Assembly: GCF_014196495.1 (NCBI RefSeq)
Contig: NZ_JACIDT010000001.1
Span: forward strand, 1 to 64,000
DNA: 64,000 nucleotides
Direction of reading: 5' to 3'
Source: Sphingobium jiangsuense
Lineage (GTDB): Bacteria > Pseudomonadota > Alphaproteobacteria > Sphingomonadales > Sphingomonadaceae
How positions within the stretch are numbered: position 1 is the first letter of the stretch; each line of letters opens with the position of its first letter. The position numbers and the translations under genes were made by a program. Of the stretch, positions 22,287 to 56,017 are shown in pieces. The notes under the pieces were generated by a model, which worked only from the letters and a program-made list of their open reading frames with translations, made no database searches and was not told the origin of the DNA.

Positions 22287-23759
22287 TCACTTCTTCATGA
22301 ACTTGTCGAAACCGGGAGGCAACTGCGGCATGCCGCCGCCCAGACCGGGCAGCCCCCCCGCGCCGCCGGCGCCGCCGAGCAGGCCGCCAAGGCCGGCGCC
22401 GCCGCCCTTGCCGCCCCCAAGACCACCAGCAAACATCTTGGCGAGACCGCCCAGACCGCCCATCTTGCGGATCTTCTTCATCGCCGTTTCCATCTCCTGA
22501 TGCATCTTCAGCAAACGGTTGACCTCCTGCACCGTGGTGCCGGAGCCCTTGGCGATGCGGATCTTGCGCTTGGCGTTGATCAGCGCGGGCTTCTCCCGCT
22601 CCTTGGGCGTCATCGACCCGATGATCGCGTCGAGGTGCACCAGCGTCTTTTCATTGGCGCCGCTCTGCGCCATCGCCGCCTGCGCCTTCTTGAGGCCGGG
22701 GATCATCCCGGCGAGCGCGCCGAGGCCGCCCATCTGCTGCATCTGGCGAAGCTGCATGCGCAGGTCGTTCAGGTCGAACTTGCCCTTCGCCATTTTCTTG
22801 GCAAGCTTGTCGGCCTCTTCCGCGTCGATGACCTCGGCGGCCTTCTCGACCAGCGACACCACGTCGCCCATGCCGAGAATGCGGTTGGCGACGCGCGAGG
22901 GGTGGAACGGCTCGATCGCGTCGAGCTTTTCGCCGGTGCCCGCGAACTTGATCGGCGTGCCGGTGACGAAGCGCATCGACAGCGCCGCACCGCCGCGCGC
23001 ATCGCCGTCCATGCGGGTCAGCACCACGCCGGTCAGCGGCACCTGCTGGGTGAAGCTGGTCGCGACGTTGATCGCGTCCTGACCGGTCAGGCTGTCCACC
23101 ACCAGCAGGATTTCCTGCGGCGTGGCGACGTCCGCGACGGCCTTCATCTCATCCATCAGCGCCTGATCGACATGGAGGCGACCCGCCGTGTCGAGCATCA
23201 GCACGTCGAAGCCCTGCAGCTTCGCCGCCTGCATCGCGCGCTTCGCGATATCGACCGGCTGTTGCCCCGCGATGATCGGCAGCGTCGCGACATCGGCCTG
23301 CTGACCGAGCACGGCAAGCTGCTCCTGCGCCGCCGGGCGGTTGACGTCGAGCGACGCCATCAGCACCTTCTTGCGCTCCTTGTCCTTCAGCCGCTTGGCG
23401 ATCTTCGCGGTGGAGGTGGTCTTGCCGGAGCCTTGCAGACCCACCATCATGATGACGGCGGGCGGCGTCACGTCGATCATCAGATCGCTGCTCTCGGCGC
23501 CGAGGAATTCGGTCAGCGTGTCGGAAACGATCTTGACGACCATCTGCCCCGGCGTGACGGAACGCAGCACGTCGCTGCCCACCGCGCGATCGGTGGCGCG
23601 ATCCACGAATTCGCGCACCACGGGAAGCGAGACGTCGGCTTCGAGCAGCGCGATTCGCACCTCGCGCATCGCGGCGCGGACGTCATCCTCCGTCAGCGCG
23701 CCACGTCCGCGAAGCTTGTCGAACACGCCTGTCAGGCGATCGCTCAGGGACTCGAACAT
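22287..23759 (-). CDS. ffh: Signal recognition particle protein Ffh
   Basis: This is a 490-aa SRP GTPase. The N domain starts [20 protein letters not shown]. The G domain has [35 protein letters not shown] and [10 protein letters not shown]. The M domain contains the methionine-rich, SRP-RNA-binding part ([20 protein letters not shown]) and ends in a Gly-rich tail with GGLGG repeats. GAGG sits before the ATG at 23759; the 44-codon upstream extension is rejected. It partners FtsY, encoded at 26210 in this window. Confidence 0.97.
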
Positions 23760-23991
23760 CGACACCTCTTGTCGCGGGAAACCCGCAGGAAAGCTTGAGC
23801 ATGCCCCAAACGACGAACACGCCGGCGGGCGAAACCTCGCCGGCCAGCGTCGATCCTTGGACCATCTCACCGCGCCCTGTGGAGCGGCCAACCCATGGAT
23901 GTCATCGGGGCACCGAACGGCGCAAGCCGCCCGGTTGCTGTGGCGCGCTTAGGGGAAAATGCGCGGGAAGGCAAGTGAAAGGCGGCAGGCC

Positions 23992-24027: not shown

Positions 24028-24834
24028 ATGGGCATATTCAGGAAAATGCACGGCCTCGGCAATGATTTCGTGGTGATCGACACGCGGGAAAGCCCGGTCG
24101 AGATGACGGAGGCCCGCGCGCGCGCCATCGCCGACCGGCATACCGGCATAGGCTGCGATCAGTTGATCGTCATCGGCCCGTCGGATCGCGCCGACGTGTC
24201 GATGCGCATCTTCAACGCCGATGGCTCGGAGGTCGCGGCCTGCGGCAATGCGACGCGCTGCATCCCGCTGTTCGTCGGGCGGGACGTGCTGATCGAGACG
24301 CAGGCCGGTCTGCTCGACGCGAGCCTCACCGACACGGGCGCCAGCGTCGACATGGGCGCGCCGCGCTTCGATTGGGCGGCGATCCCGCTCGCCTATGCGA
24401 TGGACACGCTGGCGATGCCGGCCAGCTGGGAGGATTTGCCGCCGCCCTCCTGCGTCAATGTCGGCAACCCGCATGTGATCTTCTTCGTCGACGATCTGGA
24501 CGCGGTGGACACCGCCCGGCTCGGCGCGCTGATCGAGCAGGACCCGCTGTTCCCGGAGCGGGTGAACGTCAATTTCGCGCAGCTCCTCGATCCCCGCAAT
24601 ATCCGCCTGATCGTGTGGGAACGCGGGGCGGGCCTCACCCGCGCCTGCGGCACCGGCGCCTGCGCCACCGCCGTCGCCGCGATCCGGCGCGGGCTGGCGA
24701 CAGGCCCGGTGACGGTGACGCTGCCCGGCGGCGATCTCGTCATCGATTGGGCGCCGGGCGGCACCATCCGGATGACCGGACCCGCCACCTCCGTTTTCGC
24801 GGGCGAGGCCGACTGGGAAAGTTTCGATGTTTGA
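24028..24834 (+). CDS. dapF: Diaminopimelate epimerase
   Basis: This is a 268-aa PLP-independent epimerase converting LL- to meso-diaminopimelate for lysine and peptidoglycan. The active-site cysteines are in ACGNATRC and ACGTGACATAV. The N-terminus KMHGLGNDFVVID is classic. The start at 24028 is chosen from promoter geometry; no Shine-Dalgarno is visible. It stops 135 bp before mtaB, and the gap is filled by a remarkable inverted-repeat element. Confidence 0.96.
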   Translation: MGIFRKMHGLGNDFVVIDTRESPVEMTEARARAIADRHTGIGCDQLIVIGPSDRADVSMRIFNADGSEVAACGNATRCIPLFVGRDVLIETQAGLLDASLTDTGASVDMGAPRFDWAAIPLAYAMDTLAMPASWEDLPPPSCVNVGNPHVIFFVDDLDAVDTARLGALIEQDPLFPERVNVNFAQLLDPRNIRLIVWERGAGLTRACGTGACATAVAAIRRGLATGPVTVTLPGGDLVIDWAPGGTIRMTGPATSVFAGEADWESFDV

Positions 24835-24837
24835 ACG

Positions 24838-24956
24838 GCACCAGCCCGCTCCCCGTCAGTTTGAAACGAAACATCCGGGGGATGTTTCGTGGATACTGGC
24901 CGGCCTCCCAATAGGATACCATGTCTGGGTGGCCGGGTGGGGGAGCGGGCTGGTGC
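24838..24956. repeat. 119-bp element with 17-bp perfect inverted ends and two internal hairpins
   Basis: The outer arms 24838-24854 and 24940-24956 are exact inverted copies (GCACCAGCCCGCTCCCC and its complement). Inside, CGAAACATCC/GGATGTTTCG (24867-24889) forms a perfect 10-bp hairpin with a GGG loop. CCGGCCTCCCA/TGGGTGGCCGG (24900-24936) forms an 11-bp stem with one mismatch. The whole folds as a three-way junction. It fills almost exactly the dapF-mtaB gap. It is probably a mobile or REP-like extragenic element, which would also give a stable RNA structure if transcribed. Confidence 0.85.
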
Positions 24957-24969
24957 GGAACCCTGACTT

Positions 24970-26217
24970 ATGACCGACCCGACGCTCATCACCTTCGGCT
25001 GCCGCCTCAACATTGCGGAAAGCGAAGCGATGCGCGGCCTTGCGCAGGGGCAGGACGATCTCGTCATCGTCAACAGCTGCGCGGTGACGGGCGAGGCGGT
25101 GCGGCAGGCGCGGCAGGCGATCCGCCGCGCGAAGCGGGAGCGCCCGGACGCGCGCATCGTCGTCACCGGCTGCGCCGCGCAGACCGATCCCGCGATGTTC
25201 GCGGCGATGCCGGAGGTGGACAGCGTTCTGGGAAATCGGGAAAAGCTGAAAGCGGAAAGCTTCGCGCCCGAACCGCAGAAAGTGCGCGTCTCCGACATCA
25301 TGGGCGTGCGCGACACCGCGCCGCATCTCATCACCGCCTTTGCCGAGCGCGCCCGCGCCTTTGTCGAGGTGCAGAATGGCTGCGACCATCGCTGCACCTT
25401 CTGCATCATCCCCTATGGCCGGGGGAACAGCCGCTCCGTGCCCGCGGGCGCGGTGATCGACCGGGTGAAGGCGCTGGTGGACGAAGGCTATAAGGAAATC
25501 GTCCTCACCGGCGTCGACGTGACCAGCTATGGCGCGGACCTGCCCGGCGCGCCTACCCTTGGCAGCCTTGTCGAGCGCCTGCTGACCCATGTGCCGGACC
25601 TGCCGCGCCTGCGCCTCTCCTCGCTCGACAGCGTGGAGATAGACGACCGCCTCTTCGCGCTCGTCACGCAGGAAAAACGGGTAATGCCGCATCTGCACCT
25701 CTCGCTTCAGGCAGGCGACGACATGATCCTCAAGCGCATGAAGCGCCGCCACAGCCGCGCCGACGCCGTCCGCATGGTCGAGAGGCTGAAGGCGATCCGG
25801 CCGGAAATCAGCATCGGCGCCGACATCATCGCCGGTTTCCCGACCGAGACCGAAGCCATGTTCGCCAACAGCCTCTCGCTCGTCGCCGACTGCACCATCG
25901 TCCACGGCCATATCTTCCCCTACAGCCCGCGAGCAGGCACGCCCGCCGCGAAGATGCCACAAGTGGACAAGGCCGTCATCAAGGACCGCGCCGCCCGCCT
26001 GCGCGCGGCCTGCGCCGCCAACCGCGCCCGCTGGCTCGCCTCGCTGGTGGGGACGGAGCAGCAGGTGGTGGCCGAGGGCGACGGCTCCTGTGGCCATGCC
26101 GAGAATTTCGCGCCCGTCCGCCTGCCGCGCGTGCTGGAACGCGGAGAAATCGCCCGCGTCGCCATCAGCGGGGTTGAGAAAGACCGGCTGATCGCGCAAG
26201 AGGCCAGATATGAGTGA
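24970..26217 (+). CDS. mtaB: Radical SAM methylthiotransferase MtaB
   Basis: This is a 415-aa enzyme that converts t6A37 of tRNA to ms2t6A. The N-terminal UPF0004 domain has cysteines in FGCRLNIAESEAM, VNSCAVTGEA and VVTGCAAQ. The radical-SAM cluster is in CDHRCTFCIIPYGRGNSRSV. A C-terminal TRAM-like stretch follows about residue 360. MiaB/RimO relatives were considered; the short N-terminus and the QNGCDHRCTFCIIPYGRG form favour MtaB. It overlaps the ftsY start by 8 bp. Confidence 0.9.
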   Translation: MTDPTLITFGCRLNIAESEAMRGLAQGQDDLVIVNSCAVTGEAVRQARQAIRRAKRERPDARIVVTGCAAQTDPAMFAAMPEVDSVLGNREKLKAESFAPEPQKVRVSDIMGVRDTAPHLITAFAERARAFVEVQNGCDHRCTFCIIPYGRGNSRSVPAGAVIDRVKALVDEGYKEIVLTGVDVTSYGADLPGAPTLGSLVERLLTHVPDLPRLRLSSLDSVEIDDRLFALVTQEKRVMPHLHLSLQAGDDMILKRMKRRHSRADAVRMVERLKAIRPEISIGADIIAGFPTETEAMFANSLSLVADCTIVHGHIFPYSPRAGTPAAKMPQVDKAVIKDRAARLRAACAANRARWLASLVGTEQQVVAEGDGSCGHAENFAPVRLPRVLERGEIARVAISGVEKDRLIAQEARYE

Positions 26218-33233: not shown

Positions 33234-33430
33234 TGGTTAGCGGACATATCGTGCTGGAGTAGAAAGTTCACGCGGAGACGCGGAGGCGCGGAGAAGGACG
33301 TTCCGGGCCGCAGGCCCCATTTCATTCTCCTTGCGTCGGTTGCCGGCGTGAATGACGAGGGAAAGCGCTTCGCGCTACTATCTCTCCGCGTCTCCGCGCC
33401 TCCGCGTGAAACCAATCTTCTACGTCCGCT
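33234..33430. mobile_element. 197-bp inverted-repeat element, copy 1
   Basis: Nearly identical in length and sequence to 55821-56017; I count four differences. It carries inverted segments: TTCACGCGGAGACGCGGAGG continuing to CGCGGAGA near one end, and a complementary 28-bp segment near the other, with two mismatches made by an exchange of GAC and GGC units. The arms surround about 95 bp with no convincing gene. It looks like a MITE or bulky REP element between sufE and the LLM gene. Confidence 0.85.
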
Positions 33431-55820: not shown

Positions 55821-56017
55821 TGGTTAGCGGACATATCGTGCTGGAGTAGAAAGTTCACGCGGAGACGCGGAGGCGCGGAGAAGGACGTTCCGGGCCGCAG
55901 GCCCCATTTCATTCTCCTTGCGTTGGTTGCCGGGGTAAATGACGAAGGAAAGCGCTTCGCGCTACTATCTCTCCGCGTCTCCGCGCCTCCGCGTGAAACC
56001 AATCTTCTACGTCCGCT
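55821..56017. mobile_element. 197-bp inverted-repeat element, copy 2
   Basis: This is the second copy of the element at 33234-33430, in the same orientation, with the same ends and inverted segments. It lies between the MOSC gene and the rpoC terminator, so it flanks the rpo operon. The few differences fall between the arms. Confidence 0.85.

Follow-up and report, generated by a model that had tools for sequence, protein, structure and literature searches.

A 119-bp palindrome at the dapF/mtaB junction of Sphingobium jiangsuense is probably an old copy of a dispersed alphaproteobacterial mobile element

Our analysis of a 64,000-nucleotide stretch of Sphingobium jiangsuense DNA, called here the window, indicates that the 119 bp at 24838-24956 are probably (probability about 0.7) an old copy, inserted between dapF and mtaB, of a non-coding palindromic mobile element that is dispersed among Alphaproteobacteria and linked to IS5-type MITEs, with the window copy itself probably immobile. 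An insertion is the most likely origin of this sequence, rather than a gene-specific regulatory device. The basic unit would be a palindrome of about 76 bp with a 31-bp stem, often serving as the centre of a MITE in congeners, and an IS5-type transposase would move, or would have moved, the composite in trans. The names dapF and mtaB are those of the initial annotation, which was made from the sequence alone and placed the element at the right coordinates.

The dapF stop codon occupies 24832-24834 and the element starts 3 bp on, as had been described; the mtaB ATG at 24970 lies 13 bp past the element end. The features are as follows.

24838 to 24956, no strand assigned: whole palindromic element in its three-way-junction form (fold, perfect arms and BLAST matches)
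24838 to 24854, plus strand: left outer arm GCACCAGCCCGCTCCCC, the perfect complement of 24940-24956 and equal to the outer arm of the family consensus
24940 to 24956, plus strand: right outer arm GGGGAGCGGGCTGGTGC, pairing with the left outer arm
24855 to 24899, plus strand: extra hairpin segment in the left arm, replacing a few bases of the simple element (fold and alignment of three-way forms)
24900 to 24936, plus strand: inner stem of the palindrome with the family loop (GGATACCATGTCT) (fold, BLAST matches and consensus)
24927 to 24949, plus strand: G-quadruplex motif GGGTGGCCGGGTGGGGGAGCGGG; the minus strand of the window copy has no such motif
24826 to 24837, plus strand: bases ahead of the element that end dapF (GAT GTT TGA, then ACG) (dapF ends in relatives)
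24957 to 24969, plus strand: bases separating the element from the mtaB ATG, with no clear target duplication (sequence reading)

RNA folding of the 119 bp gave the three-way junction that the initial annotation had proposed, at -82 kcal/mol against -47.8 +/- 3.7 for shuffled sequences (z -9.2), none of 200 shuffles was as stable, and the DNA fold of the minus strand gave z -9.7. The outer arms are fully complementary, in agreement with the perfect 17-bp inverted ends claimed earlier, and the stem described as 11 bp with one mismatch consists of 10 pairs and one T-T mismatch (24900-24910 with 24926-24936). The perfect hairpin reported as 10 bp is present, with a stem that proved one pair longer, 11 bp around a 3-base loop (24866-24876 with 24880-24890). 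Three sites in the window have perfect inverted repeats whose 17-bp arms are no more than 100 bases apart; two of the sites lie inside another repeat family, and none of 40 Markov-1 resamples contained such a site. No Rfam family scored above its gathering threshold within 24838-24956, and an Rfam structured RNA was rejected for the element on this ground.

Two further observations concern other parts of the window. The Rfam ffh sRNA (RF01793) matched with 44.8 bits at 23812-23864 on the minus strand, at the start of an Ffh-like open frame at 22287-23891. Another repeat, of 171 bp with 28-bp inverted ends (TTCACGCGGAGACGCGGAGGCGCGGAGA), is present at 33255-33425 and 55842-56012; among the matches listed, 10 places in the own genome have at least 94% identity over its full length, and matches, often to end pieces only, are found in 14 of 41 genomes, the own one counted. 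It looks like a young, separate MITE-like family.

A BLAST search with the 119 bp found matches in 51 of 94 genus genomes, own genome counted, and those listed fall mostly on part 63-119 of the element. The search for copies that the initial annotation had suggested thus shows that the sequence, and not the shape alone, recurs among relatives. The 3' half and the outer arms of the window element are part of a dispersed palindrome of about 76 bp, with a 31-bp stem and a loop of up to 17. The simple element, 75-77 bp long, is composed of GCACCAGCCCGCTCCCCCACCCGGCCnCCCA, a loop that is usually GATAC or a near form, and then the complement; this description comes from 20 sequences (alignment A1), which are the 29 best-match loci L002-L030 minus seven three-way forms, the truncated L007 and the irregular L012. 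A covariance model built from A1 detected the palindrome in 57 of 94 genus genomes and in 125 of 298 family genomes (58 of 96 genera), own genome counted in both, and in 19 of 289 genomes of a class sample, namely the own one plus 18 from other families. In a phylum sample 11 of 299 genomes matched, with one weak match (40 bits) outside the class. Copy numbers from these searches are rough, since limited candidates were scored and both strands of the palindrome were counted. The model found two copies in the own genome, the window copy and a diverged simple copy that apparently lies between hisA and hisF (genes read by eye). An accidental palindrome, which the initial annotation expected to appear as a single unconserved copy without covariation, was rejected because of the family of copies in the genus and beyond; the own genome has its second copy and the family covaries.

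Among 18 sequences of other families, the core CnCCCCCnCCCRRCCnCCC is present on at least one arm in all and on both arms in 15. Loci L031-L110, 526,065 bases in all, gave no match to this pattern, and the window gave one, on the minus strand. The likeness of the core across families is closer than a hairpin needs, though the model favours long hairpins. Named copies were found on plasmids of Sphingobium, Sphingomonas, Novosphingobium and Sphingopyxis (6 of 72,556 records). In three annotated plasmid contexts, a small sample from which two further regions without annotation were left out, the palindrome match lies between genes, 20-32 bp from a stop codon, a placement like that of the window copy behind dapF. 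Many similar copies occupy unrelated intergenic sites, with the intergenic position taken from these three contexts. A phage origin was rejected, as 50,697 phage records gave no match to the palindrome; the core pattern occurs in 29 stretches of viral contigs, which may be proviral ends with host flanks. In one genome (G364, loci L235-L244), short units ending in GCACCGG adjoin the palindrome, in tandem in L244, and some of them have small hairpins of differing stem sequence, in a mosaic-like arrangement.

The compensatory stem changes that the initial annotation had proposed to look for among copies were found in two alignments. In A1, 97.7% of cells were paired, a percentage that, as in A4, is inflated because the covariance model selects well-paired sequences; 8 of 31 pairs had changed on both sides, in 46 cells, and none of 500 shuffles was as high in cells or in score. 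Alignment A4 holds 18 sequences and covers 15 of the 18 other-family genomes (G440, G508 and G531 are absent and three genomes give two sequences each), and here 12 of 31 pairs and 60 cells had changed on both sides, again with 0/500 shuffles as high by either measure.

Some copies of the palindrome carry a second hairpin beside the outer stem, TTCAAACGAGgcacgtgaCTCGTTTGAA (L002, L006, L013, L021, L022, L025, L233 and L234), and L023 is similar to these three-way forms. The small hairpin covaries at 3 of 10 pairs in the alignment of the eight forms (A3, which does not include L023 and has the L233 and L234 ends out of register). When the copies are oriented by the loop, so that it reads GATAC, the extra hairpin belongs to the 5' arm in the window copy and in six of the eight forms; L233 and L234 have it in the opposite arm. 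The extra hairpin in the left arm of the window copy, which gives rise to its three-way junction, has a different sequence and is deeper, and the outer stem is 17 bp versus 9 in the other three-way forms. In an exact search, the core pattern of this inner hairpin was found in one of 94 genus genomes, its own, with no exact match elsewhere among them. The three-way shape is most likely a variant of the dispersed palindrome family.

The G-rich arm of the palindrome reads GGG-n5-GGG-n-GGGGG-n3-GGG, a G-quadruplex motif that is present on both strands in 18 of 20 simple copies of A1 and 17 of 18 of A4, compared with 0.31 and 0.25 per arm in shuffled arms. Seven of the eight three-way forms have the motif on one strand and none has it on the other; the diverged second copy of the own genome has it on one strand, and the window-copy motif at 24927-24949 is the sole plus-strand G-quadruplex motif in the 64 kb. 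The motif is a lead only, because the long hairpin should win in single strands. It bears on the proposal, unlikely in our view and compatible with the mobile element, that the copies are selected functional sites (a binding site, or a G-quadruplex/cruciform switch) that were spread by transposition and kept for their effect. The excess of the motif over shuffled arms speaks for such selection, and so does the core that 18 sequences from other families (15 genomes) have in common. A further point in favour is that none of the five positions of A4 that covary between columns 8 and 30 falls in a G-tract, a separation that is suggestive only, since G-tracts and variable positions partly define one another. 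Recent spread, however, would likewise keep sequences alike, three tract columns include single unpaired cells, a quadruplex would be expected to face competition from the long hairpin in one strand, and the family is patchy even in the genus (57 of 94), with only two copies in the own genome, both diverged. Somewhat more doubtful is the idea that the conserved feature is a G-quadruplex motif for each strand of the 31-bp hairpin, that is, a portable DNA or mRNA structural site kept by host lineages and adopted as cargo of an IS5-type transposon; the three-way forms, window copy included, would then be one-sided, the extra hairpin removing the motif from one strand.

Insertion of a mobile palindrome copy at the dapF/mtaB junction, the reading that we prefer, agrees with the state of this junction in relatives. 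The element is absent from all 80 other dapF-mtaB loci, which are not all independent because the species behind the two locus sets overlap. In 77 of these loci the aligned proteins are 2-53 bp apart, with 2-8 bp in many relatives; the distance is 89 bp in one locus and 105 bp in two. In the latter, the congeners L134 and L150, the gap is filled by another palindrome, CGTCATTGCGAGCG..AGCGAAGCAATCC, and the presence of one palindrome family here and another in two congeners suggests that the junction may be insertion-tolerant. The 53-bp gap of L125 has a short GCACCGGC stretch, possibly a remnant. The window dapF ends in FDV and most relatives end in F or FG, which suggests that the insertion, or a change that accompanied it, rewrote the dapF stop; the closest relatives of this DapF in the named collection are the Sphingomonadales MAG M0605 (86%) and Sphingobium strains (77-81%). 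The bases at 24826-24837 are possibly part of the insertion or were altered by it, and by eye they weakly resemble the composite ends GAGTCTGTTTGGAAA. The GAAC that flanks the element on either side (TGAACG..GGAACC) may represent a 4-bp duplication, which would place the boundary elsewhere.

Other copies of the palindrome have ends like those of insertion sequences. Outward reading from 85 palindromes (from 100 loci, about four being likely chance pairs) showed that many, mainly in G066 and G081, are flanked on each side by a small hairpin and then by CCAAACAGACTC. Three were dropped for short flanks, and among the 82 scored the end motif, with up to three mismatches, was present on both sides in 26 (a raw count that would include any chance ends), on one side in 26 and on neither in 30, a few of which are chance pairs. 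These composites of congeners end in GAGTC..GACTC and are bordered by 3-bp TNA duplications: identical 3-bp flanks were found in 17 of the 26 two-ended copies, including L015 and L020, which look like one orthologous insertion in two genomes, versus a mean of 4.7 and a maximum of 14 in 10,000 rounds of shuffled partners. The flanks are unequal in the other nine, and TNA is present on the left side in 24 and on the right side in 20 of the 26. Among the matches listed, end pairs also occur 905 bp apart, two in G074 and one in G080; all three units have equal flanks (TAA/TAA, TTA/TTA and TTA/TTA) and an open frame, and the protein of one of them, L225, matches DDE_Tnp_1, DUF4096 and the IS5-family model NF033580. 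Minimal 48-bp versions with a single hairpin (L228, L230) have TTA on both sides.

The ends, the TNA duplications and the 905-bp elements read as the signature of an IS5-type MITE, and the IS5 group with TNA targets is presumably that named IS1031. Since the composite ends and duplications match the 905-bp IS5-family elements, a transposase of that type most likely mobilises the composites in trans. Copies in other genera have other flanking hairpins, which suggests that an IS5-type element may have captured a palindrome spreading by another route, and the IS5 link may not extend to the whole palindrome family. The window copy has neither the terminal inverted repeats nor the fixed-length target duplication of an IS5-type MITE: GAGTC ends, flanking hairpins, a clean target duplication and a convincing direct flank are all lacking, and a search of the own genome for the end motif, allowing up to one mismatch, found none. 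Having no recognisable outer ends, the window copy is probably immobile. The composite ends GAGTC/GACTC (e.g. L160, L187) and the three-way inner hairpin (GTGACTCG) contain GANTC, the CcrM methylation site, and methylation there could gate transposition of the composites.

It is improbable that the palindrome is REP/BIME-like and that a REP-associated tyrosine transposase (RAYT) moves it in the form of a single-stranded hairpin. The mosaic with small hairpins in inverted order and the position near gene 3' ends in the three annotated contexts would suit such an element, but Y1_Tnp is present in 23 of 94 genus genomes, is absent from the own genome and occurs in only 2 of the 10 genomes with at least 40 palindrome matches. 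Over the 94 genomes, the palindrome is found in 13 of 23 with Y1_Tnp versus 44 of 71 without (Fisher p 0.81), and RAYT mobilisation was rejected for this lack of association. The consensus ends also carry neither a GTAG nor a CGTC tag (the roughly 76-bp palindrome begins with GCACC), and the composites, with their TNA duplications, point to a DDE enzyme. The suggestion in the initial annotation of a mobile REP/MITE unit is therefore retained in part: the palindrome is dispersed, covaries, is absent from the junction in relatives and has transposon-like ends in congeners, but neither a REP tag nor a Y1 link accompanies it.

Comparison with known systems gives a similar picture. IS5-family MITEs resemble the congener composites, which have IS5-like terminal repeats and 3-bp TNA duplications and share their ends with a full-length IS, but the window copy lacks ends and duplication, and copies of the central palindrome exist in other families and between other flanks. 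Rhizobium intergenic mosaic elements (RIME) are palindromes in an intergenic mosaic, and ERIC elements are imperfect intergenic palindromes of about 127 bp; by description alone, our palindrome is like both, although ERIC elements are enterobacterial. According to PMC3733652, a GTAG or CGTC tag marks one end of the REP hairpin, which is 20-40 bp long, and the CGTC repeats, most frequent in Alphaproteobacteria, reportedly have no transposase of their own. The GTAG and CGTC super-families of REP/BIME described there are likewise dispersed palindromes in mosaics, but the palindrome studied here has a 31-bp stem, an unrelated sequence and no such tag. By eye, it is the junction palindrome of L134 and L150 that resembles the CGTC repeats described in PMC3733652. 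Caulobacter CcrM-associated intergenic repeats (CIR), named in PMC10969869, are similar by description alone in being alphaproteobacterial and intergenic, with the composite ends GAGTC/GACTC fitting GANTC, but the window copy, read by eye, has no GANTC. The palindrome is undescribed in the literature that we searched on sphingomonad repeats, RAYTs, IS5 MITEs, and mosaic and CcrM-linked repeats (mainly open texts without supplements), and the accessible parts of PMC3733652, PMC10969869, PMC4666352 and PMC12306157 make no mention of it. This widespread palindromic element is apparently undescribed in the literature searched.

It is highly improbable, despite its position and predicted stability, that the element is a regulatory RNA or terminator dedicated to keeping dapF apart from mtaB-ftsY, given that 24500-25300 has no terminator-like or promoter-like site, that the other 80 junctions lack the element, that the palindrome family occurs at unrelated sites and that Rfam has no match at the element. 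The binding platform and the stable separating RNA suggested in the initial annotation stay putative; the findings that bear on them are the predicted stability and the lack of a terminator-like site. As an inserted mobile palindrome, the element would place a very stable hairpin behind the dapF stop in a dapF-mtaB transcript, where it would be tolerated at the gene 3' end and could possibly slow 3' decay or loosen mtaB coupling.

With this explanation, a puzzling gene junction becomes a case of a widespread element whose core is common to several alphaproteobacterial families. The presence of a G-quadruplex motif on both strands offers a testable reason for that conserved core. The composites found in congeners tie such palindromes to a specific type of transposase, a link that PMC3733652 describes as missing for the CGTC repeats.
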